DNA of 64,000 nucleotides from Niastella koreensis GR20-10 (GTDB lineage: Bacteria > Bacteroidota > Bacteroidia > Chitinophagales > Chitinophagaceae), in contig NC_016609.1 in NCBI RefSeq assembly GCF_000246855.1, positions 2,604,001 through 2,668,000 of the forward strand. The letters are read 5' to 3'. Of this stretch, positions 1,551-61,180 are shown one piece after another. Positions within the stretch are counted from its first letter, which is position 1. Each line of letters opens with the position of its first letter. Both the position numbers and the translations under genes were made by a program. The notes beneath the pieces are model-generated. The model saw only the letters and a list, made by a program, of their open reading frames with translations. It was not told the DNA's origin and ran no database searches.

Positions 1551-1646
1551 GTTACCGATTTCCGGTTGCCGGTTACCTGGTATTTATTGCTTATGGCTTT
1601 GACTGAATTTTGCATTCCCGGCGACCGGTGACTGGTAACCGGGAAC
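1551..1646. repeat. 3' word-repeat element, GGTTACC family
   Basis: The left arm (1551-1580) repeats GTTACC/GGTTGCCGGTTACC words and the right arm (1616-1646) carries their complement (ACCGGTGACTGGTAACC). A spacer containing GGTATTTATTGC lies between them. It sits downstream of glgC, 52 bases past the stop, and upstream of the transporter. A short ORF across it is composed of repeat sequence and was not called. Confidence 0.6.
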
Positions 1647-1697
1647 AAAAAAGTGGACCACTCTTTACGAATGACCCACCTTAAATCTTTTTGTCTC

Positions 1698-2972: not shown

Positions 2973-3047
2973 GGTTGTAAATTTTAACCTTCTAGATCTT
3001 GTTCTTTTATTCTCTTATTCTGGTCTACTCTTCTTAAAGTTATACAA

Positions 3048-4469: not shown

Positions 4470-4732
4470 TCTAAACAATCGGGTTAATAGTAAAAAGGAA
4501 ATGTGTGTTCAATATAGGAAGGTTTTTGATTGAATGATGCAGTTCCATAAAAAATGATTACAAAAGACACCTCATATAAGACGATTTATAAATTGTATTG
4601 GTTCCGGCAACAGAAATTTTCATGCCCGATGCGGCTAAAGCGGTATCTTGGCGATTGCTTTTGAAAAACGTGTAAAAAGGTAATTGAATTTGTATTTTTA
4701 AAACATCTTTTTGACTAAAAACCAACCGCTCA

Positions 4733-6244: not shown

Positions 6245-6337
6245 TACGCGAATTATGTATGAATGATGTTATCTTCATGCCGCAAAATGGTCCGAAGGGG
6301 CTTTTTTAGACTGAAAAATTGAAATTGAATTTTAGCA

Positions 6338-7318
6338 ATGAGACAACAAGAGTATGCCATTGGGATTGATATTGGCGGAACCAACACCGTTTTTGGAATT
6401 GTAGATCACCGGGGCGACATCTCGTACCGGGGCGCCATTTCAACCCGAAAGCACAATAATATTTCTGATTATATCGATGAACTGGCCGTAGCGCTGGCGC
6501 CGGCCATCGAACATGTAGGCGGCCTCGATTCCATTCGTGGTATAGGAGTTGGCGCACCCAACGGAAATTATTATAAAGGCACTATTGAATATGCACCGAA
6601 TTTACCCTGGAAAGGGCTGATCCCCCTGGTTCAGCTCATGAACGATAAATTCGGCGTCCCCTGCTCCCTCACCAATGATGCCAACGCTGCGGCGGTGGGT
6701 GAAATGATGTATGGGGTGGCCCGGGGCATGCGCGATTTCATTATGATCACCCTGGGGACCGGGGTTGGCAGCGGCATCGTGGCAAACGGTCAGCTGATCT
6801 ATGGCCACGACGGTTTTGCCGGCGAACTGGGCCATACGACTACGATTCCGGGTGGACGTTTACACAAAGGAACCGGTTTGCGCGGTTCGTTGGAATCATA
6901 TGCTTCCGCTACCGGCGTGGCATTGACCGCCCTGGAATTTCTTGACCGGGATCCCAAACGCGACAGCCTGTTGCGCAACTATGCCAAAGAGCAAATTGAT
7001 AGCCGCGTTGTATATGATTGCGCCATGCAGGACGACGCCATCGCCCAGGAAGTGTACCAGTTTACCGGTGAGGTGCTGGGACTGGCCCTGGCCAATTTCG
7101 TAATGTTCTCTTCGCCCGAAGCCATCATCCTGTTCGGCGGTATGACCAAGGCCGGCGACCTGATCCTGAAACCCACCCGCGAAAATATGGAGAAGAACCT
7201 GCTGCCCATTTTCCAGAATAAAGTGAAGTTGTTGTTCTCGGAGCTGAAGGAAGCCGATGCCGCTATTTTAGGGGCTAGTGCGTTGGTTTGGGAGGTGAAG
7301 GCAGATAAGGTTGTTTAA
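6338..7318 (+). CDS. ROK-family sugar kinase (glucokinase-like)
   Basis: 326 residues with the actin-like ATPase fold of ROK kinases. DIGGTN at residues 11-16 is the phosphate-1 loop; LTNDANAAAVGE, TLGTGVGSGIV and FAGELGHTT are the sugar and ATP site motifs. The zinc-binding Cys-rich motif usual in ROK proteins (C-x-C-G-x2-G-C-x-E) is replaced by a stretch reading HKGTGLRGSLES with no cysteine. The fold and LES-YASATGV continuation remain. It likely phosphorylates glucose or a related hexose imported by the preceding permease. A 16-bp hairpin terminator follows it. Confidence 0.85.
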   Translation: MRQQEYAIGIDIGGTNTVFGIVDHRGDISYRGAISTRKHNNISDYIDELAVALAPAIEHVGGLDSIRGIGVGAPNGNYYKGTIEYAPNLPWKGLIPLVQLMNDKFGVPCSLTNDANAAAVGEMMYGVARGMRDFIMITLGTGVGSGIVANGQLIYGHDGFAGELGHTTTIPGGRLHKGTGLRGSLESYASATGVALTALEFLDRDPKRDSLLRNYAKEQIDSRVVYDCAMQDDAIAQEVYQFTGEVLGLALANFVMFSSPEAIILFGGMTKAGDLILKPTRENMEKNLLPIFQNKVKLLFSELKEADAAILGASALVWEVKADKVV

Positions 7319-7323
7319 AGCCA

Positions 7324-7455
7324 ATGTGATAATGTGATAATTCGATAATGTGATAATGGAATACAGCTCACGCGAGTGCTTCGCGTGAGCTGTATTTTTT
7401 ACAGAAGCTGTCTAGCTCTGTATTTCATTATCGAATTATCAAATTTGCTAATTTG
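7324..7455. repeat. 3' word-repeat element, TGATAATG family
   Basis: Left arm: tandem GTGATAATG/TTCGATAATG words starting about 5 bases after the ROK kinase stop. Right arm: complementary CATTATCGAATTATCAAATTTGC words running into the 3' end of the convergent gene. TGTATTT lies at 7419-7425 before the right arm. The strong terminator hairpin is nested between the arms. Confidence 0.65.
7360..7396 (+). terminator. Intrinsic terminator of the ROK kinase gene
   Basis: A perfect 16-bp inverted repeat (AATACAGCTCACGCGA and its complement) with a 5-base loop is followed by a run of T. It lies 42 bases past the kinase stop codon. Confidence 0.85.
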
Positions 7456-8497
7456 CCTTCTTTTTCCGCGGTTCTTTCTTCTTAACTATAAACACACTCG
7501 CCACTGGTCTTTCTCCTTCTTTATCTGCCGGCTGAATGGTTTCTTTTCCATTAACGAGCATACAACTGCTGCCGCCGCCATCCAGGTTGATGGCTTCTTC
7601 GCAACCCAGTTCTACCAGGATGCGCGCCGTTTCATCGAGCGTGGCGCCTTCGGCCACCCCGGGGCTACGGCCCTGTATAACCAGGATAATCAACCGGTGA
7701 TTGTGGGTATAGCCAATGGCGGTACGCGGGTGCCGGTCGTCCCGTTCAAACGCGTACAACTGCTCTTCTTTATTGGTGATAAAAACGGCGCCTTCCTGTA
7801 CCAGTACCGGACCGCCGCCAATGGCGGTATGCATCTTCCACCAGTTCCATTGTTCAATGGTATGCAGGTCGGCAAAGGATGGATCGGGATTGCTGCCTTT
7901 GGCAATTATAGGATGGGTTTGAAATGCGTAAGGCCATCGTTTGGCCGTGTCGGTGAACAGCCAGGCTACATCGGCCACCCGCTTTTTGGTTAGGCCAAAT
8001 GCGCTGCGGGTAGCGTAATAAAAGGAGTCGTTAAACAGGCTTTTCAATGCGGGAATATTGTACGCAACCATTTTTCCATCACGGATGATCACATTCAGGT
8101 TCTGGTTGGTTTGAAACGAGAAATACCCGCCGTTTACAACGATATATGGCTTTTGTTCCCGGTTATAATATTGCAAAGGGGTATACGCTTTGCCGGCGCC
8201 TGTTTGGGTGGTAAAGTCAAGGTGTTTGTCGCGCAGTTTCACTTCAACGCAAAAGGCGGTAAAAGGGCGCCCGCTTAAAGAATCGGTAGTTTTAAAAACC
8301 CGGATGGCTTTGGGCAGGCTGTCAAATTCATTATCCGCCTTTTTCCAGTGCAATTGGGCCAGGACTGTAGCTGGAAGCAAGACGATCGCTAATAATATTG
8401 CATGTCGAATATCCAATGTTGAATGTCGAAGTGAATACCAATGTAACAAAGAATATCGAATGTTAATTCTGTATTTACTTCGACATTCAATATTCAT
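7448..8497 (-). CDS. Secreted phosphodiester glycosidase (NAGPA domain)
   Basis: 349 residues. The catalytic domain carries YIVVNGGYFSF, TAIGGGPVLVQEG, HPRTAIGYT and EEAINLDGGGSSCMLVNG. These are the conserved blocks of the NAGPA/phosphodiester glycosidase family (PF09992), which removes GlcNAc-1-phosphate or related sugar phosphodiesters. A hydrophobic signal segment (ILLAIVLLPATVLAQ) sits only at about residues 34-48. The 33 residues before it are encoded by an AT-rich word repeat (8404-8512). The only ATG is at 8497, overlapping the lipA stop by one base; a TTG at the 28th codon would give a normal signal peptide, so the true start is uncertain. Confidence 0.75.
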   Translation of the reverse strand: MNIECRSKYRINIRYSLLHWYSLRHSTLDIRHAILLAIVLLPATVLAQLHWKKADNEFDSLPKAIRVFKTTDSLSGRPFTAFCVEVKLRDKHLDFTTQTGAGKAYTPLQYYNREQKPYIVVNGGYFSFQTNQNLNVIIRDGKMVAYNIPALKSLFNDSFYYATRSAFGLTKKRVADVAWLFTDTAKRWPYAFQTHPIIAKGSNPDPSFADLHTIEQWNWWKMHTAIGGGPVLVQEGAVFITNKEEQLYAFERDDRHPRTAIGYTHNHRLIILVIQGRSPGVAEGATLDETARILVELGCEEAINLDGGGSSCMLVNGKETIQPADKEGERPVASVFIVKKKEPRKKKAN

Positions 8498-8512
8498 TAT
8501 TCAATATTCATC
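8404..8512. repeat. 3' word-repeat element, GAATATTGAATGTCGAAG family
   Basis: Words of the type ATGTCGAATATC and CGACATTCAATATTC form two complementary arms around a centre with TGTATTT (8470-8476). It contains the lipA stop codon and the 5' end of the glycosidase ORF, so both reading frames run into repeat sequence. Confidence 0.65.
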
Positions 8513-9435
8513 ATTTTTTTCTGGTTCTGCCACTGTTCTTTGCCGTAACCTGGAATAACGTGTTTTTCGCTGTGATAAGAAGAACGAACCAGCGGACCGC
8601 TTTCCACGTAATCGAAGCCAATGTTATAACCAAACTCACGGAATTCGGCAAATTCGTCGGGGTGCACAAACCGGAGCACCGGTAAATGCTTTTTGGTAGG
8701 TTGCAGGTACTGGCCAAGCGTAATTACATCCACGCCGCTGTTACGCAGGTCCTGCATGGTTTGCATTACTTCTTCCTTGGTTTCACCCAGTCCGCACATG
8801 ATACCGCTTTTGGTGCGCATGCCACCTTCTTTCAGGATCTTCAGCACTTCCATGCTGCGGCGGTATTTTGCCTGAATGCGTACCTGGCGGGTGAGGCGCT
8901 CAACGGTTTCAATATTGTGTGATACTACTTCGGGATGCGCTTCGATGATGCGTTGAACATCTTCGGCCTTTCCTTTGAAATCGGGGATCAGCGTTTCGAG
9001 GGTAGTATCGGGATTTAATGCTTTTACTGCTTTAATGGTATTGTGCCAGATGGTGCTGCCACCGTCTTTCAGTTCGTCGCGGTCAACCGAGGTTAATACG
9101 GCGTGTTTTACTTTCATCAGGTGGATGGCTTCCGCCACGCGTTGGGGTTCGTCCCAATCCACTGCGTCCGGCCGGCCGGTGGCTACTGCGCAAAAACCAC
9201 AGCTGCGGGTGCACACATTACCCAGGATCATAAAGGTAGCGGTGCCTTCGCCCCAGCACTCGCCCATATTGGGACAATTGCCGCTTTCGCAAATGGTGTG
9301 CAGTTTATGGGTATCAACGAGGTTGCGTACGTGCCGGTAGTTTTCGCCGGTAGGCAGTTTTACACGCAGCCAGTTGGGCTTTTTTACAACAGAGTTCGAT
9401 TCATTTACACTACTGATAACTGGTAATTCCTGCAT
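8497..9435 (-). CDS. lipA: Lipoyl synthase
   Basis: 312 residues, a radical-SAM enzyme inserting two sulfurs into octanoyl-lipoyl domains of 2-oxoacid dehydrogenases and the glycine cleavage system. Cys49, Cys54 and Cys60 ([12 protein letters not shown]) bind the sacrificial auxiliary 4Fe-4S cluster. Cys75, Cys79 and Cys82 (CTRSCGFC) bind the SAM cluster. RSSYHSE near the end supplies the conserved Arg-Ser-Ser motif whose serine is the fourth auxiliary ligand. The final residues MMNIE are encoded inside a word repeat, and the stop overlaps the next ORF's ATG by one base. No lipB is seen in the window. Confidence 0.97.
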
Positions 9436-9560: not shown

Positions 9561-9631
9561 TTAATCAACAAAAATAATATAAAACCGGTAATCAGGGGCT
9601 TTTAGTTATCCCGCAACAGTGTATAAATCAG

Positions 9632-9863
9632 GCATCGAGGCATAAAGGCAACAAGGCAACGAGGGGAACAAGTTGCTTTTGGTTATGGCAACGGAATCTG
9701 GTGTGCGTTGTGAAACGGCAAACGGTTCGCAGCCAGGTTGCTTACCAACCAATAACCTGGAACCCGGAACTCTGAACTAATATAAAAACCCCTAAATAAA
9801 AAGGCGGGCCTTGCGACCCACCTGGTATCTTTATGCCTTTATGCCTCGTTGCCTCGTAGCCTC
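9632..9863. repeat. 3' word-repeat element, AAGGCAACGAGGCAT family
   Basis: The left arm (9632-9663) has CGAGGCATAAAGGCAACAAGGCAACGAGG-type words. The right arm (9829-9863) is its complement (TTTATGCCTTTATGCCTCG and so on). The right arm abuts the stop codon of the outer-membrane protein gene at 9863. The arms are about 165 bases apart and enclose a GC-rich terminator. Confidence 0.6.
9803..9822 (-). terminator. Terminator hairpin of the outer-membrane protein gene
   Basis: On the minus strand GGTGGG-TCGCAAGG-CCCGCC forms a six-pair stem with one G-T pair and is followed by TTTTTATTT. Confidence 0.55.
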
Positions 9864-10663: not shown

Positions 10664-10712
10664 TGGCTATGATTTGATTATTAAACGTAAATTTAAGGTA
10701 AAAATATACATA

Positions 10713-11153
10713 ATGACTTCTACCGTAGTTTACGAAGGAAATCTAAGAACGGTTTGTTTACACGAAAAATCCGGGTCCACTTTTGAAACCGATCCGCCAA
10801 CGGATAACCAGGGTTTGGGTGAGCGTTTTTCCCCCACCGACATAGTGGCAACTGCCCTTGGCTCCTGCATGCTAACGATCATGGGTATTAAAGCCCGCGA
10901 TATGAACCTCGATATAAAAGGCATTAAAATAGATGTGGAAAAGATCATGAAGGCCGATCCCCGCCGGATCGGTGGCATTAATTTAACATTTCATTTACCA
11001 GATACTTTACAGGTCGATGAAAAACAAAAGACCATCCTGGAAAGAGCAGCCAATACCTGCCCGGTTATGTACAGCATTCACCCCGATATTGAAGTGAATG
11101 TGACCTTTAACTGGAAACCTGAAAACCAATTGGCAATAGACAATAACCAATAA
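10713..11153 (+). CDS. OsmC-family peroxiredoxin
   Basis: 146 residues from the ATG at 10713; the longer open frame begins in non-coding sequence and is rejected. Two redox cysteines are present: Cys52 in TALGSCMLTIMGI and Cys116 in ANTCPVMYSI. These are the paired residues that reduce organic hydroperoxides in OsmC/Ohr proteins. FSPTDIVATALGSC is the family core helix. The expected C-terminus is NVTFNW; the remaining ENQLAIDNNQ is encoded by a word repeat that also supplies the stop codon. It probably detoxifies hydroperoxides in the cytoplasm. Confidence 0.9.
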   Translation: MTSTVVYEGNLRTVCLHEKSGSTFETDPPTDNQGLGERFSPTDIVATALGSCMLTIMGIKARDMNLDIKGIKIDVEKIMKADPRRIGGINLTFHLPDTLQVDEKQKTILERAANTCPVMYSIHPDIEVNVTFNWKPENQLAIDNNQ

Positions 11154-11241
11154 TCAATAACCAATAGTCAATAATCAATAGCCAATTGTCGTGAAATAAA
11201 GATTTTTTGAATATTGGCAATTGACTATTGACTATTGATTC
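11127..11241. repeat. 3' word-repeat element, CAATAGACAATTGG family
   Basis: Tandem CAATAACCAATAATC words form the left arm and GGCAATTGACTATTGAC words the right arm, with a T-rich centre (GATTTTTTG). The stop codon of the OsmC gene is inside the left arm. Confidence 0.65.
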
Positions 11242-11358: not shown

Positions 11359-12750
11359 ATGAAAAAATGGTCCTCGTTTCTTCTCTTATGTACGCTTGCC
11401 ATCGCTTCTCATGCCACCGTTCGCCTGCCCGCGATCATTTGCAGCAACATGGTACTGCAACAGCAATCAACCGTAAAACTGTGGGGCTGGAGCGCTCCTT
11501 TTGAAAAAATTGTTATTACCACCAGCTGGAATAACAAATCAGATACCCTGAAGGCCACTAACAATGCCAACTGGCAAAAGAATATTCAAACCCCTGCAGC
11601 CGGCGGTCCCTATACCATTACCATCAAGGGCAGCAATACTCCCGCTCCTATTGTGCTGGAAAATGTAATGATCGGTGAAGTGTGGGTTTGCTCGGGCCAG
11701 TCGAACATGGAGTTTGGCTATTATAATAAAATACCTGATGTGGTAGCCGAAGTGCCCACCTGTTATAACCAGAACATCCGCTTTTTTGCCATTCCCAAAA
11801 CCACAGCTACCAGTCCGCAGGATGATTGCGCCGCTAAATGGACTGTGTGTGACAGTAACACGCTGAAAACCTTCAGCGCCGTGGGCTATTTCTTTGGAAA
11901 GAAATTAAATAAAGACCTGAACGTACCCATTGGTTTAATCAATAGCAACTGGGGTGGTACCCCGGCCGAAGTCTGGACACCCGATTCTCTGGTGAACAAC
12001 GATGCGGAACTGAAAGGCGCCGCCGCTAAATTAAAAGCCAATGGCGGCTGGCCCATTACCCCGGGCTATACCTATAATGCCATGATAAACCCGATTGTTA
12101 ATTATAACATCGCAGGTACTATCTGGTACCAGGGTGAGAGCAATACCGAAACCAATGCTTCGTATGCCAAACTGTTTACGATCATGATCGACAGCTGGCG
12201 CAAAGCCTGGGGAAAGGAATTCCCTTTTTATTATGTAGAAATAGCCCCTTATAAATATGGCACCCCGTTGATCGGCGCCCTGCTGCGCGAACAGCAAACA
12301 AGGGTGATGTCGCATCCGCAAACAGGCATGGTGGTTATTACCGACCTGGTGGCTGATACCAATAACATTCACCCCACCAATAAACACGATGTGGGCGCCC
12401 GCCTGGCTAACTGGGCCCTGCACGATACCTATAAAAAAGAAGGGTTCGCCTATAAAAGCCCCCTGTACAAAAGCATGGAAGTGAAGAAGGGCAAAGCATA
12501 CATCAGCTTTGATTATGCGCCTGCCGGCTTAATGGCTACCGGAAAAACCATCACTGAAATATATGTGGCGGGAGCCGATCAGCAGTTCTACCCTGCTGAG
12601 GCCAAAATTGAAAATAACCAGCTGGTGGTGTGGAGTAAACTGGTGAAAGAACCGGTGGCTGTACGCTATGGTTTCACCAATACCGCAATGGGTAATTTGT
12701 TTGGGAAGGAAGGGTTGCCGGTAAATCCGTTCAGGACTGATAGTTGGTAA
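11359..12750 (+). CDS. Secreted sialate O-acetylesterase-like SGNH esterase
   Basis: 463 residues from the ATG at 11359, with a signal peptide (KKWSSFLLLCTLAIASHA). CSGQSNME holds the nucleophile Ser115, GTIWYQGESN is the oxyanion block, and DTNNIHPTNKHD supplies the Asp and His of the triad. This is the SASA (PF03629) layout: an N-terminal beta sandwich (LPAIICSNMVLQQ...), then the split SGNH domain. It removes O-acetyl groups from sialic acid or plant polysaccharides such as xylan; the substrate is not evident. A word repeat starts in the base after the stop codon. Confidence 0.88.
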   Translation: MKKWSSFLLLCTLAIASHATVRLPAIICSNMVLQQQSTVKLWGWSAPFEKIVITTSWNNKSDTLKATNNANWQKNIQTPAAGGPYTITIKGSNTPAPIVLENVMIGEVWVCSGQSNMEFGYYNKIPDVVAEVPTCYNQNIRFFAIPKTTATSPQDDCAAKWTVCDSNTLKTFSAVGYFFGKKLNKDLNVPIGLINSNWGGTPAEVWTPDSLVNNDAELKGAAAKLKANGGWPITPGYTYNAMINPIVNYNIAGTIWYQGESNTETNASYAKLFTIMIDSWRKAWGKEFPFYYVEIAPYKYGTPLIGALLREQQTRVMSHPQTGMVVITDLVADTNNIHPTNKHDVGARLANWALHDTYKKEGFAYKSPLYKSMEVKKGKAYISFDYAPAGLMATGKTITEIYVAGADQQFYPAEAKIENNQLVVWSKLVKEPVAVRYGFTNTAMGNLFGKEGLPVNPFRTDSW

Positions 12751-12838
12751 GTTCCGAGTTCAGAGTTCCAAGTTCCGAGTTTCGAGTTCAGAGTTCAGAG
12801 TTCAAAAACCTGGAACCTGGAACTCGAAACTTGGAACT
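12751..12838. repeat. 3' word-repeat element, AGTTCCGAG family
   Basis: Left arm: GTTCCGAGTTCAGAGTTCC-type words immediately after the esterase stop. Right arm: complementary CCTGGAACTCGAAACTTGG words. It fills the whole space between two convergent genes and could fold into one long imperfect hairpin. Confidence 0.7.
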
Positions 12839-12844
12839 AAAAAA

Positions 12845-13303
12845 TTAATAAATTCTACCTCTACCCTCTGCTGTTTTAATTAACTCTTCAGCCAAAGTAT
12901 CATCAAACACTTCTTCCCGGTTGGCCAGTACTTCTCTGAGAATGTCGTGAATAGTGATAATCCCCATAAATTTTTTCTCATCGATGGCTACCAGGTAGCG
13001 GGCTTTGCTTCTTATCATCAGGATCATGCAATGCTCCACCGTTTCTTCGGGACCTACCACGGGTAAATCGGTGGTCATTACTTCCTGTACATGGGCCTCT
13101 TTACTGCTGCGGCCTTTTAAAACTACGTTGCGGCTGTAATCCTTTTCCGAAAAAACGCCTTTGTACGCGTCCCCGTCCATTACAATCAGGTAACTCAGGT
13201 TTACCTGTTCAAGCAGGTGCAGGGCATCGATCACTAAAGCATCGGGCTTAATGATATTCTCCGGACGCGGTTTACTAGCAATAAGATCGTCTACCGTTCT
13301 CAT
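12845..13303 (-). CDS. Two-CBS-domain protein
   Basis: 152 residues with two consecutive CBS domains. The first covers roughly 15-70 (VIDALHLLEQVNLSYLIVMD, GVFSEKDYSRNVV) and the second 75-130 (VQEVMTTDLPVVGPEE, ARYLVAIDEKKFMGIITIHD). Such stand-alone CBS proteins bind adenosine nucleotides and regulate partner enzymes or transporters. No partner domain is fused. A short tail (EELIKTAEGRGRIY) follows. The repeat between this gene and the esterase separates two convergent transcripts. Confidence 0.9.
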   Translation of the reverse strand: MRTVDDLIASKPRPENIIKPDALVIDALHLLEQVNLSYLIVMDGDAYKGVFSEKDYSRNVVLKGRSSKEAHVQEVMTTDLPVVGPEETVEHCMILMIRSKARYLVAIDEKKFMGIITIHDILREVLANREEVFDDTLAEELIKTAEGRGRIY

Positions 13304-13737: not shown

Positions 13738-13790
13738 AGTTCCAGGTTCCAGGTTTTTGAACTCGGAACCTGGAACTCGGAACTCTGAAC
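13738..13790. repeat. 3' word-repeat element, GTTCCAGG family
   Basis: CAGTTCCAGGTTCCAGG and its complement CCTGGAACTCGGAAC form a short hairpin of words just after the ACBP stop. The word is the same family as at 12751-12838, about 0.9 kb upstream. Confidence 0.65.
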
Positions 13791-20987: not shown

Positions 20988-21034
20988 TATGTAATTTTTC
21001 TCCGGTACCTCTCTACCGGGGCTAAACTACATAA

Positions 21035-21100
21035 ATTAACGCTTAACGCCTAATGCAAAACGTCTAACGCCTGTATTGAATAGGGCGTTCTGCGTTCAGA
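21035..21100. repeat. 3' word-repeat element, TTAACGCCTAA family
   Basis: TTAACGCTTAACGCCTAATGC words, a centre with CTGTATTGAATAG, and complementary GGGCGTTCTGCGTT words. It ends a few bases after the stop codon of the hemerythrin gene. Confidence 0.6.
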
Positions 21101-21103
21101 TTT

Positions 21104-21538
21104 TTATTTACTTACAGCTGCCAGTGACACATTCAACTGACTCAGGTCATGTTGGGGAATTTCTTCTTCCATTTTTTTGAAAATGAACTCATCTTCAAAA
21201 TAGCTGTGTTGGTCAACCAGCTTAATAAAGGCACTATATAAATAGTAGTCTTCATCATTGCGGTTTAACCGTTCGGCCAACAGGCGAATGGTTTCGTGTT
21301 CGCGCTTTAAGATGTTCATGAAGTTGTAAGGAAACTGATGCTTCAACAAAAAAGGAAATAATATCGCCTCTTCTGCATCCACATGCTTTTGGAGCTCATT
21401 TTTCCAGAATTGAACTATCCGCTGCCGGATGCTTGTTTTATCACGTTGCTGCTGGATGTCTCGTAGAAATTCGCGGCACTTAAGCCGGTCTTCTTTGTGC
21501 TGCCAGGATAATACCTGTAATGCCCTAGAATGTTCCAT
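21104..21538 (-). CDS. Hemerythrin-like four-helix protein
   Basis: 144 residues from the ATG at 21538; the codons before it are read from a GGGAGGA-containing leader. His residues fall in the helical pattern of hemerythrin HHE domains: HSRALQVLSWQHKED, HVDAEEAILFPFL, REHETIRLLAERL and QHSYFEDEFIFKKMEE. These would bind a di-iron centre for oxygen sensing or scavenging of reactive nitrogen species. The purine-rich GGGAGGA lies about 10 bases before the ATG, unusual for Bacteroidota, which rarely use Shine-Dalgarno sites. Confidence 0.82.
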   Translation of the reverse strand: MEHSRALQVLSWQHKEDRLKCREFLRDIQQQRDKTSIRQRIVQFWKNELQKHVDAEEAILFPFLLKHQFPYNFMNILKREHETIRLLAERLNRNDEDYYLYSAFIKLVDQHSYFEDEFIFKKMEEEIPQHDLSQLNVSLAAVSK

Positions 21539-21639: not shown

Positions 21640-21782
21640 GGCCAAAGCCTAAATCAAAAAAAGCCTAAAGCAGAAAGCTTAAAGCAGAAAGCCTAAAGCC
21701 CAAAACAGAAAGTCCAAAGTTGTATTTGCTTTCAGCTTTAACCTTTAGGCTTTAAGCCCTGTATTGCTTATAGCTTACAGCT
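21640..21782. repeat. 3' word-repeat element, AAAGCCTAAAGC family
   Basis: Left arm of repeated AAAGCCTAAAGCAGAAAGC words; TGTATTTGCTTT at 21721-21732; right arm of CTTTAACCTTTAGGC and GCTTATAGCTTACAGC words. It stops about 5 bases from the tpiA stop codon. Confidence 0.7.
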
Positions 21783-24563: not shown

Positions 24564-24653
24564 ACAGCTGTAAGCTTTAAGCGGTAAGCTGTAAGCAAAT
24601 ACAGAACGTCATGACCGCGACGCTTACAGCTTATAGCTTAGGGCTTATAGCTA
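24564..24653. repeat. 3' word-repeat element, AGCTGTAAGCTT family
   Basis: CAGCTGTAAGCTTTAAGCGG words, AAATACA (complement of TGTATTT, 24597-24603), then complementary CGCTTACAGCTTATAGC words that run into the stop codon of the yajQ-like gene (24651-24653). Confidence 0.65.
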
Positions 24654-25142: not shown

Positions 25143-25205
25143 AGCGTAAAATTTTATGGGGCGTTGCCGTACTAACGGAACGAACTACGAAAGTAGGAAA
25201 AAACT

Positions 25206-25303
25206 GGTTACCGGTTACCTGTTTCCGGTTACCGGGCAACACCTGCATAACGATATATAACCTGTATCCGGATCAACCCGGCGCCCGGTACCTGGTAACG
25301 GCA
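25206..25303. repeat. 3' word-repeat element, GGTTACCGG family
   Basis: GGTTACCGGTTACCTG and CCGGTTACCGGGCAAC words form the left arm and GCGCCCGGTACCTGGTAACGG the right arm, with AACCTGTATCCGG in the middle. Same word family as at 1551-1646, 23 kb away. Confidence 0.6.
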
Positions 25304-25371
25304 ACAAAAAAGGCCCGCCCAAAACTGGACAGGCCTGGTGTGTTGCACATGAAACGAAAGAAAGAAGGTTA

Positions 25372-25554
25372 ATGTGATAATTTGATAATGTGCTAATGTG
25401 AAAATGGAAATCCAGCATTTCGTTAACAACTACATTTTTGAGCGCTCGCCCATGCGGGCCAGGGCTGAGAGTCACTGAAATTGGTATACTATATGCGAAG
25501 CACTCACAAATGCTGTATTTCATTAGCTAATTATCGCATTATCGAGTTAGCTAA
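25372..25554. repeat. 3' word-repeat element, TGATAATGTGCTAATG family
   Basis: Left arm GTGATAATTTGATAATGTGC; right arm TTAGCTAATTATCGCATTATCGAG, reaching the stop codon of the receptor gene at 25555. TGTATTT at 25514-25520. Same word family as at 7324-7455. Confidence 0.65.
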
Positions 25555-32319: not shown

Positions 32320-32509
32320 CAGCTCAAGCTTCAAGCCACAAGCTGCAAGTAAATACCGGGTTAAAGCCTAAAGGTTAAAGGCTAAAGCCTTTAATACAAA
32401 AACCCGAATACGAAAATATATTTCGTATTCGGGTTTTGCATTATGCTTTTGGCTTTGGGCTTTTACCTTTTGGCTTTAGGCTTTCGCCTTTAAGCCTTTA
32501 TGCTAGGCT
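32320..32509. repeat. 3' word-repeat element, TTAAAGCCTAAAGG family
   Basis: AAGCTTCAAGCCACAAGCTGC and TTAAAGCCTAAAGG words left, TTTGGCTTTAGGC words right, nested around a terminator hairpin at 32401-32435. AAATACC lies near 32350. The stop codon of lgt (32503) is inside the right arm. Confidence 0.65.
32401..32435. terminator. Bidirectional terminator between convergent genes
   Basis: AACCCGAATACGAAA and its complement around a short AT loop give a 15-bp stem. T-runs follow on both strands, so it can end both the secreted-protein transcript and lgt. Confidence 0.75.
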
Positions 32510-33866: not shown

Positions 33867-33960
33867 CCAATTGACAATTGCCAATCGGTTCTCAAACCGG
33901 GGTCAGCCTGACTGCAAACGAACGTTCCGCATTTGCGAATTATTGCCTATTGACTATTGC
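33867..33960. repeat. 3' word-repeat element, CCAATTGACAATTGCC family
   Basis: CCAATTGACAATTGCC words and complementary GCCTATTGACTATTGC words, with GGTTCTCAAACCGG between. It lies immediately beyond the bacilliredoxin terminator. Same word family as at 11127-11241 and 44900-44989. Confidence 0.6.
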
Positions 33961-36527: not shown

Positions 36528-36655
36528 AGCTAATGTGCTAAGGGCTAATTAACTAATGGGCTGGATTTATAAATGAACTATTAAATAAAAAGTCCCCTCG
36601 GCGCTCTGCTGAGGGGACTTTTAGCATATTATCGTATTAGCAAATTAGCCCATTA
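36528..36655. repeat. 3' word-repeat element, GCTAATGTGCTAAGG family
   Basis: GCTAATGTGCTAAGGGC words after the plus-strand stop and complementary CGTATTAGCAAATTAGCCC words abutting the minus-strand stop, flanking a terminator hairpin. A single inverted element thus spans two convergent 3' ends. Confidence 0.65.
36591..36619. terminator. Bidirectional terminator
   Basis: AGTCCCCTC and GAGGGGACT flank GGCGCTCTGCT; T-runs follow on both strands. It serves the convergent secreted-protein and NTF2-like genes. Confidence 0.85.
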
Positions 36656-38528: not shown

Positions 38529-38605
38529 GAACTGGTTCAGGTTGCTGATGGTAGTGAATTTTAATTGTCAGTAAAGATTGTACCCGAAACAAAAAAATTA
38601 TTGCA

Positions 38606-38635
38606 CAAAAGTAATAGTTTGAGGATTTTTTCAAA
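38606..38635 (-). promoter_or_regulatory. Promoter of the arginine decarboxylase gene
   Basis: Minus strand TTTG (38632-38635), 18-base spacer, TACTTTTG (38606-38613). Predicted start near 38600, leader about 72 bases. Confidence 0.6.
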
Positions 38636-38689
38636 TAAAAATTATGCCCGGATTAAAATTGTCAGTATAGTGTTGATTTCTGACCCAGA

Positions 38690-38768
38690 ACGCTTAAGGC
38701 TGAGCGCTCAACGCCGAACGCTGGTTGCCGCTACGGCTTGGGGCTTGCAGCTTATAGCTTATGGCTGT
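38690..38768. repeat. 3' word-repeat element, AACGCTTAAGGC family
   Basis: AACGCTTAAGGCTGAGCGC and CAACGCCGAACGC words, then GGCTTGCAGCTTATAGC words. It lies just beyond the rplT terminator. The pairing between arms is weaker here than elsewhere. Confidence 0.5.
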
Positions 38769-38794
38769 GTTAAGCGAGTGTTACTATAAAGAAG

Positions 38795-38822
38795 AAGCCC
38801 CACACTGTGTAGTATGGGGCTT
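38795..38822 (-). terminator. Terminator of rpmI-rplT
   Basis: AAGCCCCA and TGGGGCTT enclose a 12-base AT-rich region with further pairing (TACTACACAGTG); CTTCTTT follows on the minus strand, 22 bases past the rplT stop. Confidence 0.75.
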
Positions 38823-38843
38823 AGTATATTTAAACCGTGCAGC

Positions 38844-39188
38844 TTATTTTACAGAAGCTACCAGATTTTTGAAGGTTTCTGGTTCGTTCATAGCCAGGTC
38901 AGCCAGGATCTTACGATCCAAACCAATACCTTTTACATTGAGCTTGTGGATGAACTCAGAATACGTTAAGCCTTCAGCGCGAACGGCCGCGTTAATACGG
39001 GCGATCCACAGGGCGCGGTATTCTCTTTTCTTTAATTTACGGCCTACATATTTATATTGCAGACCTTTTTCCATTACGTTTTTCGCAACGGTATATACGT
39101 TTTTACGTTTGCCATAGTAACCTTTGGCAGCTTTCAGAATCCTTTTACGGCGTGCACGTGATGCAACAGCGTTTACTGAACGAGGCAT
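38844..39188 (-). CDS. rplT: 50S ribosomal protein L20
   Basis: 114 residues. [31 protein letters not shown] and [24 protein letters not shown] are the L20 signature blocks. L20 is a primary 23S rRNA binder needed for early 50S assembly and represses its own operon in other bacteria. It follows rpmI by 44 bases; a terminator follows. Confidence 0.98.
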
Positions 39189-39581: not shown

Positions 39582-39639
39582 AGGAATCTTTTAAAATGTC
39601 CTGCTGTTAAAGTGTTTATTTTCAGGATATTAGTAGATG

Positions 39640-39708
39640 GTTGACAAGTTGATAGCGTTGATAGAGTTGACAAGGGCCTGCCTTTGAGCCCACTATCAAC
39701 TTGTTAAC
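39640..39708. repeat. 3' word-repeat element, GTTGACAAGTTGATAG family
   Basis: GGTTGACAAGTTGATAGCG and GATAGAGTTGACAAGG words left, ACTATCAACTTGTTAACC right. It lies beyond the infC terminator. Confidence 0.6.
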
Positions 39709-39726
39709 CTTTCTCTTAATATAAAA

Positions 39727-42467: not shown

Positions 42468-42821
42468 TTTATCACTTCCTTTTTATGTGACCGGTTATAC
42501 AATTCCTTTTCCGTTGGTCTCGTATTTCCGGAAGAACGGCAAATTTAACGAACAATTTGCAGACCACCATTTACGATGTGTGTCGTAAGAAACTAATTAT
42601 TAAGTAATTTGCCGGGTGACAGAAAAGGCGGCCGGTGGTAAACTGCGGTAAAACCGGGAAAATACCGGCAATTACACATTAAAACGTAGTTATAACCGGC
42701 ACAAGAAAATAACAATTTCAGATGAAACGTCCAGGGCAAAATTTTCATTAAAACACATAGGGTAATGAAAATTTTGACATGGTAAGTTCCATCTGGCCAT
42801 AAAACAACAGTTATTTTTCAG
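42468..42821. other. 354-base divergent spacer upstream of thrS and a secreted-protein gene
   Basis: No coding frame is supported and no word repeat is present. It contains the thrS -7 box and, nearer the plus-strand gene, a perfect 14-bp inverted repeat (42737-42776). Two copies of TTTCAGATGAAA-type sequence flank it, about 100 bases apart. Confidence 0.55.
42737..42776. repeat. Perfect 14-bp inverted repeat
   Basis: CAAAATTTTCATTA (42737-42750) and TAATGAAAATTTTG (42763-42776) with a 12-base loop, 46 bases before a secreted-protein gene. TTCAGATGAAA occurs at about 42718 and again at the start of that gene. Confidence 0.6.
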
Positions 42822-44052: not shown

Positions 44053-44907
44053 ATGCGTTTTTTGCTGTTATCCCTGTTGCTTGGGTTAACCGGGGTTGGT
44101 GAGGCACAACTGTTAACGGGGGTATGGGGTGGAATAAGAACACAGAATGTAGGTGGGTGTTTTCCAGAATATTCAACGGAGCTGCATATTATTTATATGC
44201 AGAACAATGCGTTTATTGGTAATGTATACAGTTACGATAACGACCGGTACACCAAAATAAACTTTTCAGGCAGGTACAACCCGCTTACCAAACGCATGGT
44301 GATTATTGAAAACTCCGTTCTGCAATATAATGTACCCGATAGCTGTATTCCCTGCATAAAAACCTACGAACTTACTTTTTCAAAAAATGGCGAGGGCAAC
44401 GAATTGCTGCAGGGCGAATGGCGCGGCCACGAAATGGGCAATAACAACAATTGTCAGCCTGGTAAAATTTCCCTGGCACGTGTGGCCAAATCAATCTTCC
44501 CGGTTGATGTATACCAGAACGATACCCTGGCCAGATTGCAAAAGAACCTGAAACTGAAAAAGCGGGATAAAGACCTGGTTCAAACGCTTACCATCGATAC
44601 TTCTTTTTTAAAAATTGAATTGTACGACAATGCCGAGATCGATGACGATACGGTAACTGTGTTCCTGAACAATACCATGCTGTTGTACCAAAAACGGCTT
44701 ACCGGCAAACCGCTTGTACTGAATGTAACCGCTTTTCCCAATACCGAATATGAACTGATGATGTATGCCGATAACCTGGGCCGCATTCCACCCAATACTG
44801 CGCTGATGGTTATAACAGCCGGCCGGAAACGCTATCAACTGCACCTGTCGTCGAGCGAGGAGAAAAGCGCCGTGGTACGGTTTAAGTATGAACCGAAAAG
44901 CCAATAG
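44053..44907 (+). CDS. Secreted lipocalin-like protein, unknown (paralogue 2)
   Basis: 284 residues. Signal peptide (MRFLLLSLLLGLTGVGEAQ). N-terminal domain with LLTGVWGGIR and YSYDNDRYTKINFSGRY. C-terminal domain with LKIELYDNAEIDDDTVTVF and DNLGRIPPNTALMVI, which closely matches paralogue 1. It lies 91 bases after paralogue 1. Four cysteines (C-x3-CIPC-like spacing) occur in the N-terminal domain. A word repeat overlaps its stop codon. Family unknown. Confidence 0.65.
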   Translation: MRFLLLSLLLGLTGVGEAQLLTGVWGGIRTQNVGGCFPEYSTELHIIYMQNNAFIGNVYSYDNDRYTKINFSGRYNPLTKRMVIIENSVLQYNVPDSCIPCIKTYELTFSKNGEGNELLQGEWRGHEMGNNNNCQPGKISLARVAKSIFPVDVYQNDTLARLQKNLKLKKRDKDLVQTLTIDTSFLKIELYDNAEIDDDTVTVFLNNTMLLYQKRLTGKPLVLNVTAFPNTEYELMMYADNLGRIPPNTALMVITAGRKRYQLHLSSSEEKSAVVRFKYEPKSQ

Positions 44908-44989
44908 ACAATAGACAATTGGCAAAGGCCCAACCTCCCTGCCGACAGGTCGGGAGGGCCGGGGAAGGCCTCAAGCAATGGGCAATAAA
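44900..44989. repeat. 3' word-repeat element, CAATAGACAATTGGC family
   Basis: GCCAATAGACAATAGAC words at the stop codon of paralogue 2 and CAAGCAATGGGCAATAAATACC words on the far side. A GC-rich palindromic insert lies between them (CCTCCC-TGCCGACAGG-TCGGGAGG, 44934-44957). The stop codon is in the left arm. Confidence 0.6.
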
Positions 44990-48977: not shown

Positions 48978-49149
48978 CTCAGACTTTTTAACATACCAAA
49001 GATAAATGAATAACCTTACATTACTGCCTCATACACAAGTGATTTCGTGCTAAAAACGGCCTTGTTTTTGAATAACTGCCATCTTTTGTGGAACACTTCC
49101 CAATCGGCCCGAATTGTTATATTTTTGCACCTCATTTGAAGTAAAATTT

Positions 49150-57120: not shown

Positions 57121-57146
57121 CTTTAATCGTCAATGGTCTTCTGCTT

Positions 57147-57236
57147 TAACATTCAACATTGGATATTCAATATTTTGTATGCTGCCTTTCACTTTTTCAT
57201 TTCTAATTCTTCATTTCTCATTTTTAATTTCCTACT
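57147..57236. repeat. 3' word-repeat element, ATTCAACATTGGATATTC family
   Basis: AACATTCAACATTGGATATTC words then TTTCATTTCTAATTCTTCATTTC words with a TTTTGTATGCTG centre, running into the hutI stop codon. The arms pair only weakly here. Confidence 0.5.
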
Positions 57237-58470: not shown

Positions 58471-58508
58471 TTAGTGAAGATAGGCTAATTTGAAAATCTG
58501 CAAATGAA

Positions 58509-58554
58509 AAAGCCCGGAAGCAGTCCTGCTTTGCGGTAACTGCTCACGGGCTTT
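58509..58554 (-). terminator. Terminator of the trehalose synthase/phosphatase gene
   Basis: AAAGCCCG and CGGGCTTT enclose a second stem AGCAGT/ACTGCT; on the minus strand TTTTTC follows. It lies 18 bases past the stop. Confidence 0.75.
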
Positions 58555-58571
58555 CCGTTGGACAATTCAAT

Positions 58572-60833
58572 TTACATCCTTAGCCTGGTGTCCTGAGCGG
58601 AGTCGAAGGATGCATATTGATTTTTTATGACCGGTTGCATGAGCTTTTTCAACAACTGCAACACTTTTATTTGTGAGAAAACAGTGTATTGCGCCGCAGT
58701 GGATCCATTGCTTACTTTTATACTATAAGCCCGTTCGCCCAGCGCTTTAAACATGTCTTCATCGGTGGTATCATCGCCAATGCACAACACAAAATCGGGT
58801 TGCATATCGTTCACTATTTTCAACGCCATAATGCCTTTATCAAAGCCCGACATGCGTACTTCCACTACTTTGTTGCCATCCACTACCTGCAGCATGGTGT
58901 TTTGTAACAGCTGCGAAAGATTATTGATCAATTCCCTCGACCGGGTAAAACCCAGTTCGGGATGCGTATTACGATAGTGCCAGGCCAGCGTATTGGTTTT
59001 TTCTTCAATAAAAGAACCCACGCAGTGAGTAACGAAGAGCTGCATAATAGGCCTGATCTCGTTCTTCCATTGATCGGGAATAGATACTGCCTGCTGCCAC
59101 TGATCGCCTTTGGGTTTATAGCTGGCTCCATGTTCTGCAACCAGCATCATCGGCAGATCGCCCAGCCATTTTTCCAGGGTATAGGCTTCGCGGCCGCTGA
59201 TGATAACTGCATTGTTTTTAGGGTCTGATGATAACCCGCCTAAGATGCTTCGCAGTTCTTCATTGGGTTTTGCTTCTGAAGGTATGCGGGCATACGGAAC
59301 CAGGGTACCGTCATAATCCAGTAACAGGCAACGGCTATTTGCCATCTGGTAGTGCAAATGAATCTGGGCAATCACCCGTTCATCGAGCACTTTTACCTGT
59401 TGTTTCAACTGCTCCTGTTTTACATTCGCCAGTTGGTCGAGAAAATCGCTTACCCATTTTATAACATCGTAGTCCGATAAGCGCTGTTGCATCAGGAACA
59501 TGCGGTGCTCCTGTTCTTCTTCGGGCATGGTCAATGCCCGGTTAATTGCTTTCGACACCTCAATAGTGTCTGTGGGATTTACCAACAGGGCCTCATTCAG
59601 TTCGTTGGCAGCCCCGGCCAGTTCACTCAGGATCAAAACGCCTTTCCGGCCCGAACAGCTGGCTACGTATTCTTTGGCAACGAGGTTCATGCCATCGCGC
59701 AAAGGTGTTATCAAAGCTACATCGGCTGCTTTGTACAAAGCAGCCAGTTCGTTGAACGGAAGATGGGTGTATCGGTATATGATGGGTTGCCAGGTAATGG
59801 TGGATACTTTACCATTAATGGTGCCTATCTTTTGTTCTATTTGTTGTTTACGTTCGGTGTATGCCTGAATATCATCCCGTGAAGGAACAATGTTCAGGAT
59901 GAACACTACTTTCTCCCGCCACTCGGGATAATTGTCCAGGAAATGCTCGAACGCGTTCAGGCGGTCCATCAATCCTTTGGTATAATCCAATCTGTCTACC
60001 GAGAAAATGATCTTCTTACCTTCAAAATTCTTCTTTATCTCGTTGTAGTATTGTTTTGTTTCCGGATCGTTACAGGCCTTGTTGAATTTTTTATAGTCGA
60101 TACTGATCGGGAACAGATCGGCTTTTATTAACCGGTCCTGGTATTGCATGCTGTGAAATGAACTATCCACACCCAGGATCATTTTAGCCGATTGCAAAAA
60201 GTGTTGCGCGTAATCGTGGGTGTGAAAACCAATGAGGTCACTGCCCAGTACGCCCTTCACCAGGGATGTTTTCCATTCGGCCGGTAAGGTCCTGAACAAT
60301 TCGTATGAGGGAAAAGGAATATGCAAAAAGAAACCAATGGTGGCATCCGCTTTCTCCGCCCGGATCAATTCGGGCAGCATAAGCAGCTGATAATCGTGGA
60401 TCCAAATGGTGTCATCGGGTTGTAAAAGCGGAATCAGCTTATCGGCAAACGCCCGGTTCACTTTTACATAGGCATCAAAATAATGCACGTTCGATTCTAC
60501 CAGGTTTGGAAAATAATGGAACAGGGGCCATAATACCGAATTGGAAAATCCGTTATAGTAGTCCTTGTACAGGAGCTTATTTAAAAAGAGCGGAACAATT
60601 TGAAAATCACGCCCTGAAAGTTTTTCCTCGACTACGCTCCATTCATTTTGGGGAAAATCTGCCACACCTAACCACAGCTTCTCTGTAAATCCTCTGTTTT
60701 TAGAACTATCACTTTCAAAATAACTTTTAATAGCCGATACCAGTCCTCCCGAGCTTTGCCGCAGGTTAAGCTGATCTCCCTCATGATCAATAGAGAAAGG
60801 TAGCCTGTTAGATATTATAATCAATCGTCCCAT
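58572..60833 (-). CDS. Fused trehalose-6-phosphate synthase/phosphatase
   Basis: 753 residues. The N-terminal two thirds is OtsA (GT20): MGRLIIISNRLPFSI, IWIHDYQLLMLP, FFLHIPFPSYELFRTLP and DGMNLVAKEYVA. From about residue 505 comes OtsB, a HAD phosphatase: LLLDYDGTLVPYA (nucleophile Asp), VIISGREAYTLEKWL and LCIGDDTTDEDMF. It makes trehalose from UDP-glucose (or a related donor) and glucose-6-phosphate in one polypeptide, a known arrangement. Trehalose serves as stress protectant. It sits between hutU and hutI without an evident pathway link. A 9-residue tail after ASF (DSAQDTRLRM) is low-complexity. Confidence 0.95.
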   Translation of the reverse strand: MGRLIIISNRLPFSIDHEGDQLNLRQSSGGLVSAIKSYFESDSSKNRGFTEKLWLGVADFPQNEWSVVEEKLSGRDFQIVPLFLNKLLYKDYYNGFSNSVLWPLFHYFPNLVESNVHYFDAYVKVNRAFADKLIPLLQPDDTIWIHDYQLLMLPELIRAEKADATIGFFLHIPFPSYELFRTLPAEWKTSLVKGVLGSDLIGFHTHDYAQHFLQSAKMILGVDSSFHSMQYQDRLIKADLFPISIDYKKFNKACNDPETKQYYNEIKKNFEGKKIIFSVDRLDYTKGLMDRLNAFEHFLDNYPEWREKVVFILNIVPSRDDIQAYTERKQQIEQKIGTINGKVSTITWQPIIYRYTHLPFNELAALYKAADVALITPLRDGMNLVAKEYVASCSGRKGVLILSELAGAANELNEALLVNPTDTIEVSKAINRALTMPEEEQEHRMFLMQQRLSDYDVIKWVSDFLDQLANVKQEQLKQQVKVLDERVIAQIHLHYQMANSRCLLLDYDGTLVPYARIPSEAKPNEELRSILGGLSSDPKNNAVIISGREAYTLEKWLGDLPMMLVAEHGASYKPKGDQWQQAVSIPDQWKNEIRPIMQLFVTHCVGSFIEEKTNTLAWHYRNTHPELGFTRSRELINNLSQLLQNTMLQVVDGNKVVEVRMSGFDKGIMALKIVNDMQPDFVLCIGDDTTDEDMFKALGERAYSIKVSNGSTAAQYTVFSQIKVLQLLKKLMQPVIKNQYASFDSAQDTRLRM

Positions 60834-61180
60834 AAAAAAAAACAGTAAACCAATTAATAATAAAGGCTTCTGCCACGTACAAATGTGTCAGGCCTCGTTA
60901 CATGGTTTATTATCAATGAAATTATGGTGCCAATAGAGGAGAAAACTGCGATTAACCGGCTGTTTTATAGGGATTGTAACTTGATTTTAATGTGGATCTT
61001 AGAGAAAGCTTAAAGCCAAAAGGCGAAAGCTCAAAGCCCAAAGGTGAAAGCTTAAATTGTATTTGCTTTGGCCTTTGACCTTTAGGCTTTATCCTGAAGC
61101 TAATAACAGAAGGTATATAAAAAGAAAAAGAGACAAAGATTTGCATCCTTATCTCCCTTAATGTTGTATGTTCTTTGGCC
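60834..61180. other. 347-base spacer upstream of the trehalose gene
   Basis: Holds a word repeat (61004-61100) and, near the trehalose gene, an imperfect stem AGGCCTGACACA...TGGCAGAAGCCT (about 60868-60898). No coding frame is supported; no clear promoter was recognised. Confidence 0.5.
61004..61100. repeat. 3' word-repeat element, AAAGCTTAAAGCC family
   Basis: GAAAGCTTAAAGCCAAAAGGC words left, TGTATTT at 61058-61064, then TTTGGCCTTTGACC and TTTAGGCTTTATCC words right. It lies 80 bases past the stop of the small secreted-protein gene. Same word family as at 21640-21782 and 32320-32509. Confidence 0.65.

Follow-up and report, generated by a model that had tools for sequence, protein, structure and literature searches.

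The intergenic word arrays of Niastella koreensis GR20-10 that we describe here have their closest known counterpart in the heptamer repeats of Xanthomonas and Nostoc, and share a placement rule with those of Xanthomonas. Those repeats (GGGAATC or GGGGA(C/T)T) are degenerate 7-base units arranged in tandem between genes (Rehm et al. 2015, PMC4692102). Two repeats lie in convergent orientation in 70 and 75 cases in Xanthomonas, the open reading frame (ORF) on the 5′ side is close (28 nt on average) and the next ORF is far (160 nt), few repeats occur between divergent genes, the repeats vary among related species, and paired repeats are few in Nostoc. That paper offers little beyond a polymerase-slippage hypothesis for the origin of the over-represented heptamers, and their function was left open by the authors. 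TAACTGA direct repeats, with other heptamers mixed in, were described in Beggiatoaceae, Cyanobacteria, and some Bacteroidetes (MacGregor 2015, PMC4679880), and REP and REPIN sequences, associated with RAYT transposases, were described as extragenic inverted doublets with predicted hairpins (Bertels and Rainey 2011, PMC3116915). A literature search that covered articles without their supplementary files found no paper on intergenic inverted repeats in Chitinophaga, nor any on inverted repeats with a terminator and convergent genes in Bacteroidetes.

We analyzed a window of 64,000 nucleotides (positions 2,604,001 to 2,668,000 of contig NC_016609.1, assembly GCF_000246855.1), which lies inside a genome of 9,033,684 bases in one contig and for which an initial annotation had listed about 20 word-based inverted repeats at the 3′ ends of genes. 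For one protein of this genome, the closest named relatives belong to Niastella and Longitalea. We tentatively read these elements as degenerate arrays of 7–9-base words, often forming facing pairs of the same word, that turn over rapidly by slippage and fold-back in constraint-free spacer DNA. New in comparison with the described heptamers are the many words, the periods of 7, 8, and 9 bases, the near-lack of quadruplex capacity, and the swapping of words at orthologous slots.

Periods, words, and polarity of the arrays

At all 20 sites, a near-tandem array of a 7–9-base word was found that none of 100 dinucleotide shuffles equaled (Table 1), when a near-tandem score and an inverted repeat were evaluated in a 220-base stretch per site. 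The word differed from site to site under one design, as had been stated, and the word families held their own periods (7, 8, and sometimes 9, judged by eye). The description of two complementary arms was borne out only in part: a significant inverted repeat (shuffle fraction ≤0.03) was present at 15 of the 20 sites, and at 36528 it was formed by the nested terminator and not by the words. At the remaining sites, the words formed no significant pair within the 220-base stretch, either because the partner arm falls outside it (9632) or because the inverted repeat was non-significant against 100 shuffles (33867, 38690, 44900, and 57147).

A sample of 864 kb, comprising the window and forty 20-kb stretches of the same genome, contained 541 spacers totaling 133 kb, with genes called by a simple hexamer caller of our own making and not by a standard annotation; spacers shorter than 20 bases were excluded from all counts. 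These spacers held 90 arrays at period 7, 39 at period 8, 6 at period 9, and 10 at period 11, and multiples of the basic periods (14, 16, and 21) were also seen. Shuffled spacers yielded no arrays at periods 4–22, and an equal amount of coding DNA yielded none at period 7 or 8. There were 106 distinct words among 175 arrays. Words nonetheless recurred: when sites of this genome were compared in pairs, 7.7% at period 7 and 12.9% at period 8 had words no more than one mismatch apart, compared with 2.4% for letter-shuffled words. In the GTT words, the GTT columns were 0.95–0.98 constant and the remaining columns 0.71–0.94. Inverted repeats numbered 133 in the spacers against 9.3 in letter-level shuffles, and 56 of the 133 overlapped word arrays. 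The upper limit of spacer length was 1800 bases for this last comparison, 1500 for coverage relative to starts and stops, 1300 for the word-family, G-quadruplex, and column-constancy counts, 1000 for neighboring arrays and ORF distances, 800 for terminator positions, and 600 for folding. The arrays at period 11 (ten at a score of 11) are a rarer class, seen in the spacers L061:895-1411, L035:16777-17888, and L057:17471-17830.

The tandem, degenerate, intergenic units of 7 bases are shared with both Xanthomonas and Nostoc, and the under-representation between divergent genes with Xanthomonas. Unlike the single G-rich word family per genome described for those bacteria, many words of 7, 8, or 9 bases occur here, and, unlike the arrays described there, ours have words swapped at orthologous sites. 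G-quadruplex capacity is attributed to those repeats in the same source, whereas only 7 of 415 arrays here had four GGG/CCC runs, on which ground a G-quadruplex function was rejected. This 415-array set, which was also used for column constancy, vocabulary agreement, the word content of tandem-spacer halves, and the AATACA box described below, included arrays of G013, a genome from outside the genus; G013 was excluded from the terminator-position, coverage, word-family, hairpin-polarity, neighbor-pair, and folding counts. The TAACTGA repeats resemble our arrays in being intergenic heptamer arrays that also occur in Bacteroidetes. They are, however, direct repeats mostly just upstream of starts in a Beggiatoaceae genome, whereas those described here are often mirrored, differ in their words, and have their lowest coverage next to starts. 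In L107, downstream of the match, the octamer AATAACTG is repeated in a long, near-perfect run; its tandem reading includes MacGregor's TAACTGA, and the equivalent spacer of L104 has a degenerate counterpart.

The arrays are polar. Among 161 word hairpins in eight genomes, the left arm had more G than C in 133, less in 17, and as much in 11, and same-word elements at different loci were concordant in polarity in 545 of 594 pairs (297 ± 12 under random flips). In 98 cases of neighboring arrays of the same period, the G-rich strands pointed inward in 53, outward in 9, and in the same direction in 36; the inward pairs had a word in common within two mismatches in 37 of 53 cases (baseline 25%). 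The ORF on the 5′ side of the G-rich strand was closer than that on the 3′ side in convergent spacers (medians of 26 and 98 bases; 82 of 100), for tandem-spacer arrays on the gene strand (47 and 178; 87 of 106), and in divergent spacers (120 and 206; 22 of 32), whereas the rule failed for tandem-spacer arrays on the opposite strand (112 and 97; 62 of 130). Inward-facing G-strand pairs near the 5′ ORF are thus another likeness to Xanthomonas within the genus, weaker in G075, which belongs to another genus, and not extending to opposite-strand arrays in tandem spacers.

The same G-rich word running 5′ to 3′ toward the center from both sides, the unequal arms, the random word order, and the position-specific degeneracy of the GTT words would also be compatible with word-by-word addition to broken 3′ DNA ends, as at telomeres, followed by end joining to give (word)n–center–(complement)n. 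The geometry resembles telomere end joining by analogy from general knowledge. We consider this origin highly improbable: some centers are retained terminators, no templating RNA or enzyme was found, and the conserved retron-type reverse transcriptase is not needed, since G075 has arrays but no relative of it at E 1e-40, and G015 has a relative but no array in 60 kb.

The initial annotation had named arm complementarity no greater than that of shuffled-word controls as a refutation, and for word order this was the outcome. In 67 inverted pairs, the arms paired no less well once the words of one arm had been permuted (mean difference −0.18, Wilcoxon p 0.08, 1 of 67 at ≤0.05), which means that the arms pair because both carry one word, with the order unmatched. 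In a positive control, in which an arm was set against its own exact copy, the mean difference was +8.5 and only 15 of 67 single pairs reached 0.05, so the test speaks for the set and not for single pairs. Word order was likewise unshared between loci beyond permutation (≤0.01 in 3 of 427 same-genome pairs and 2 of 947 other-genome pairs). Of the elements in N. koreensis, 25 of 59 had a non-self match over at least 80% of their length, reflecting shared words, and the element at 12751 had 124 partial matches within this genome at E ≤ 10. The idea that whole elements are copied from locus to locus was rejected on the unshared order, with one exception. The convergent spacers L062:4406-4630 and L062:7709-7844, 3 kb apart, contain a near-exact composite of several word families with a CTGTATTT box, which is likely to be a recent copy and accounts for one of the three order-sharing same-genome pairs.

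Retained slots, changing words, and placement in spacers

Seven relatives are syntenic over the window, with 31–46 of its 51 genes and mean protein identities of 84–92%. Among spacers represented in at least four of the eight genomes (N. koreensis included), arrays occupied 21 of 29 convergent and 55 of 172 tandem spacer-by-genome cases and none of the 51 divergent ones. The slot is retained: over 20 tandem spacers, arrays co-occurred 98 times, compared with 52.3 ± 5.0 expected, a value reached in none of 5000 shuffles. The word usually is not. With one mismatch allowed, 28 of 152 pairs of orthologous array-bearing spacers had a common word, compared with 180 of 2772 non-orthologous pairs; with two allowed, 61 of 152 did, compared with 588 of 2772. 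This leaves 124 and 91 orthologous pairs, respectively, with different words. Sharing above the non-orthologous level, yet in a minority of pairs, implies that some words are inherited and most are not. The prediction that words would vary across orthologous spacers together with a 3′ bias was therefore upheld.

Individual spacers illustrate this turnover. Inspection of spacer 12751-12844 by eye in ten genomes of the genus showed a word pair in eight, with about seven different words among them, and a plain terminator in the other two; the adjoining divergent spacer was recognizably conserved. The slot at 7317-7459 was occupied by an array of another word in five of the seven relatives, and that at 21660-21757 by GGCAGAG, GAAGTAGG, or other words. 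In an eight-genome alignment of spacer 38529-38843, the terminator and the next promoter region were conserved and the slot between them differed, with arrays of differing words in six of the eight genomes; the gene upstream (38844-39188, minus strand) encodes ribosomal protein L20 according to Pfam. Identity to orthologues was near the shuffled level in the three array-bearing convergent spacers of the window (0.49 versus 0.47); eight tandem spacers with arrays kept some identity (0.60 versus 0.53), and divergent spacers kept most (0.685 versus 0.545).

Replacement of the word at orthologous sites also argues against each word being the recognition site of a nucleoid or RNA-binding protein, as does the variety of the neighboring genes: 7 of 10 proteins typed had a Pfam family, and all were different, so no common function emerged. 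Such binding sites would fit a vocabulary that is common across the genus and partly shared with G075, as well as an AATACA box that accompanies several different words in several species. Of 384 arrays, 38 had the box flanking the G-rich strand on its 3′ side and 21 on its 5′ side; the corresponding counts for the reverse form, TGTATT, were 17 and 8, against about 3.8 expected per 415 random stretches (arrays with equal G and C, here 31 of the 415, were dropped from the polarity counts). On balance, we regard protein-binding sites as quite doubtful.

As reported initially, none of the seven divergent spacers singled out in the window (from 4470-4732 to 48978-49149) contained an array. The further statement that the elements lie only at gene 3′ ends does not extend to the genome: in the 864-kb sample, arrays (periods 7, 8, 9, and 11; only 7, 8, and 9 in later counts) were found in 27 of 79 spacers between convergent genes, 74 of 365 between tandem genes, and 10 of 97 between divergent genes, so the divergent class is depleted but not empty. 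In eight genomes of the genus, arrays covered 0.4–1.7% of divergent and 2–7% of tandem spacer DNA lying no more than 100 bases from a start codon; more than 150 bases from any start, coverage was 5.3% in divergent, 6.6% in tandem, and 9.1% in convergent spacers. In tandem spacers, coverage peaked at 6–11% within about 150 bases of the upstream stop codon and was 1–3% beyond 300 bases. This pattern indicates that two components make up the 3′ bias, an avoidance of starts and a genuine preference. The proposal of a repeat family at gene ends is accordingly retained as far as the single design, the varying words, their change across orthologous spacers, and the 3′ bias are concerned, with the qualification that this bias is partly start avoidance.

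A second proposal, that the elements are mainly 3′ RNA hairpins acting in decay or termination, was not sustained. On that view, selection would preserve the pairing of the arrays, as exonuclease barriers or bidirectional terminators, and let their sequence drift. Some observations are consistent with it: when the first 250 bases were folded for up to 70 spacers per class, folding was strong in array-bearing convergent spacers (median z −4.95, n = 58) and less so in array-free ones (−3.14, n = 70), on a per-strand count 39 of 124 array-bearing convergent cases had a canonical terminator, a smaller share than the 82 of 182 among array-free cases, word pairs enclose a separate terminator stem at 7360, 32399, and 36588, and the ten orthologues of spacer 12751-12844 carry either words or a plain terminator. 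Pairing, however, was not above that of word-permuted controls. In tandem spacers with both an array and a canonical terminator, the array lay solely past the terminator in 28 of 39 cases (before it in 4, on both sides in 3, and overlapping in 4; only the best-scoring terminator of each spacer was placed), as in the L20 alignment, and terminators were similarly frequent with arrays (39 of 157) and without (119 of 449). At their base, most word arms have no T-run (by eye, uncounted), and array-bearing divergent spacers fold ordinarily (median z −0.37, n = 17). Among 39 per-strand cases in convergent spacers, the array followed the terminator in 16, preceded it in 11, lay on both sides in 11, and overlapped it in 1. 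Hairpins between convergent genes, sometimes enclosed by a word pair, are a likeness to intrinsic bidirectional terminators, but the tandem-spacer arrays lie mostly past the detected terminator and, as arrays, do not constitute a GC-rich stem with a T-run downstream of a gene. Selection for exact pairing was rejected on the permutation test for the set and on the position of arrays past terminators, and we judge a selected 3′ hairpin rather unlikely overall; between convergent genes, the arrays might have termination as a secondary role. A strong hairpin after a gene need not be a terminator.

Proposed origin and candidate enzymes

In the reading that we favor, the slot would lie after a stop codon or terminator and ahead of the next promoter. 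Arrays may arise and grow there by slippage in steps of 7–8 bases during DNA synthesis, and fold-back or template-switch synthesis across a central hairpin, which is sometimes a terminator, may carry the same word into the other arm. The variable letters would be re-randomized faster than copies are inherited in order, and arrays would persist where selection tolerates their presence. Any effect on termination or insulation, mostly between convergent genes, would be a by-product or a secondary use. A syntenic clade with kept slots, swapped words, fixed polarity, and no memory of word order makes the origin of such repeats testable.

Several results weigh against this account. Slippage explains neither the polarity of the arrays nor the recurrence of the same words in another genus: words of G075 matched exactly in 18 of 55 cases at period 7 (mean 6.4, maximum 15, for letter-shuffled words) and in 4 of 12 at period 8 (0.08), in a word list that held one all-N entry. 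The polarity is itself not general, being weaker in G075 (9 inward, 5 outward) and unclear in other genera (12 versus 7 of 25, a set that includes an unrelated conserved operator-like repeat), and by word content the two strands are almost balanced in upstream halves of tandem spacers (GTT in 50 and AAC in 40 of 175). The center was alignable in only 2 of 40 orthologous pairs of paired elements, which implies that whole elements usually turn over. The words differed in only one of these two, so a concerted change of both arms around a retained center was seen once. In that case (G003 and G005), which counts in favor of the account, the central terminator is conserved and both arms have another word.

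Beyond the genus, the arrays are patchy. Around one orthologue, 80 named loci had an array in 7 of 8 Niastella or Longitalea and in 14 of 72 others. Outside the genus, 68 arrays were counted in 200 kb of G075, 10–11 in 140 kb of G013, 1–2 in 100 kb of G038, 1–2 in 80 kb of G042, and none in 60 kb of G015. Densities per 100 kb were 14–47 in the genus, 34 in G075, and 7–8 in G013.

This distribution bears on the possibility that a single-strand transposase of the Y1 (IS200/RAYT) type mobilizes the arrays as REPIN-like elements. One strong Y1 match per genome, an open frame of 146–171 amino acids, was found in all ten genomes of the genus, and Y1 also matched in the array-bearing G075 and G013. 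No Y1 was found in G015, G038, or G042. Ten Y1-less genomes (G015, G017, G037, G038, G042, G057, G062, G072, G073, and G076) had 8 arrays in about 463 kb; G034, with a weak Y1 match, and G044, which is atypical and was sampled over 5.6 kb, were excluded from this set (with G044, 8 arrays in about 469 kb). Extragenic inverted doublets with predicted hairpins are a point in common with REPINs; an IS200-type Y1 gene, a possible counterpart of the RAYT gene, is present, and the L062 duplication would fit mobility. Outside Niastella, however, the sampling covered 2 (G075 and G013) of the 26 genera in the family sample with a strong match (E below 1e-15), the Y1-less G076 carries 2 arrays in 24 kb, G034 carries 2 low-complexity arrays in 40 kb, and genome size is a confounder, as several Y1-less genomes are small or fragmented. 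Unlike REPs, moreover, the arrays have tandem words as arms and no single palindromic consensus, and there is little sign of a unit copied between loci; neither our words nor the locus-order comparison (3 of 427 pairs at ≤0.01) revealed a conserved short palindromic REP dispersed in many copies. A REPIN-like origin is in our view improbable, and the link between Y1 and the arrays is suggestive only. The 142-amino-acid Y1 protein of N. koreensis scored 53.8 bits against the IS200/IS605 model (cut-off 55) and 24.2 against that of REP-associated tyrosine transposases (cut-off 80). A short IS200-type (Y1) gene at L235:1435-1863 lies between 3-dehydroquinate synthase-like and DAHP synthase/chorismate mutase-like genes (by eye from translations), with word arrays nearby.

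The words might instead be written and not inherited, with a dedicated activity, perhaps the Y1 single-strand transposase or another end-processing enzyme, that starts at the edges of genes and, on both strands, repeatedly extends or inserts short G-rich words into the spacer. We hold this to be improbable as well; if it were true, each lineage would be rewriting the same tolerated slots in its own words, and the placement rule shared with Xanthomonas would imply a general, unrecognized DNA-writing process in bacteria.

A retron-type reverse transcriptase was rejected as the generator of the arrays, because it has no relative at E 1e-40 in the array-rich G075 and is present (54% identical) in G015, which has no arrays in 60 kb. 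The copy in N. koreensis (G000:C1:7533430-7534935; L242; L239:958-2466), the only one typed, matches the retron type XIII model with 621 bits, and matches of like size and score were found in all nine near-complete genomes of the genus, a retention across the genus that deserves notice. Other reverse transcriptases (RVT_1 matches) are present in G075, G013, and G015, and none was found in the array-poor G038 and G042, so reverse transcription as such is still a candidate process. A phage origin was rejected, as the element at 12751 had no match in a phage collection.

Features of the window and unrelated repeats

The word arrays and nested terminators of the window are listed in Table 1. Rfam 15 gave no match above the gathering score in the window.

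Table 1. Word arrays and nested terminators in the 64,000-nucleotide window. All features are unstranded ("."); values for tandem arrays and inverted repeats are from comparison with 100 shuffles.
Position	Strand	Feature	Details
1535-1662	.	Word pair GGTTACC/GGTAACC, period 7	Arms 1535-1583 and 1614-1662; tandem 1618-1646; 0/100 shuffles reach either
7317-7459	.	Pair of 8-base word AATGTGAT enclosing canonical terminator, convergent genes	Arms 7317-7355 and 7421-7459
7360-7396	.	Nested canonical bidirectional terminator	16-nt perfect stem, loop 5, T-run
8391-8518	.	Word GAATGTC pair, period 7	58-nt arms, 74% complementary; tandem 8479-8510
9630-9854	.	Far-spaced pair of 8-base word AGGCAACG/AGGCATAA; one-sided AGTTCCG-family array between	
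11127-11240	.	Word CAATAGN pair, period 7	Arms 11159-11197 and 11202-11240; tandem 11127-11186
12750-12847	.	Word AGTTCCG pair, convergent SASA-domain esterase and CBS-domain genes	Array and inverted repeat
13738-13790	.	Word AGTTCCA pair	Array and inverted repeat
21025-21109	.	Word TAACGCC pair	Array and inverted repeat
21660-21757	.	Word AAAGCCT pair	Array and inverted repeat
24566-24652	.	Word AAGCTGT pair; right arm reaches stop codon of 24651-25142 gene; AAATACAG at inner edge	
25203-25299	.	Word GGTTACC pair	Array and inverted repeat
25370-25543	.	Pair of 8-base word AATGTGAT	Array and inverted repeat
32362-32491	.	Word AAAGCCT pair enclosing terminator, convergent genes	Array and inverted repeat
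32399-32437	.	Nested canonical bidirectional terminator	17-nt perfect stem, loop 5
33868-33959	.	Word CAATTGN, weak pair, beyond genus-conserved terminator	Tandem 0/100, inverted repeat 0.20; alignment
36542-36651	.	Pair of 8-base word GCTAATGT enclosing terminator	Arms 36542-36557 and 36636-36651; tandem 36621-36655
36588-36622	.	Nested canonical terminator	Stem
38735-38766	.	Word AAGCTGC/GGCTTAT array between L20-gene terminator and next promoter region	Tandem 0/100, inverted repeat 0.14
39639-39709	.	Pair of 8/9-base word GTTGACAA	Array and inverted repeat
44896-44925	.	Word CAATAGA array, partner arm non-significant	Tandem 0/100, inverted repeat 0.70
57193-57230	.	Weak period-7 array, partner arm non-significant	Tandem 0/100, inverted repeat 0.50
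61002-61093	.	Word AAAGCCN/AAAGGTN pair	Array and inverted repeat

Two inverted repeats of another kind were seen in passing. At 42731-42782, in the divergent spacer 42468-42821, a plain 20-nt inverted repeat (AAAATTTTCATTA, 12 bases, TAATGAAAATTTT) is operator-like and unrelated to the words, and its pattern has one further exact copy in the genome, at G000:C1:4763749-4763786. A conserved inverted repeat, AAAACTATGTACTATG / CATAGTACATAGTTTT, also operator-like, occurs in L143, L148, L158, L159, L161, L169, L178, and L180, in co-directional spacers near orthologues of the LGT-domain gene at 32503-33807.

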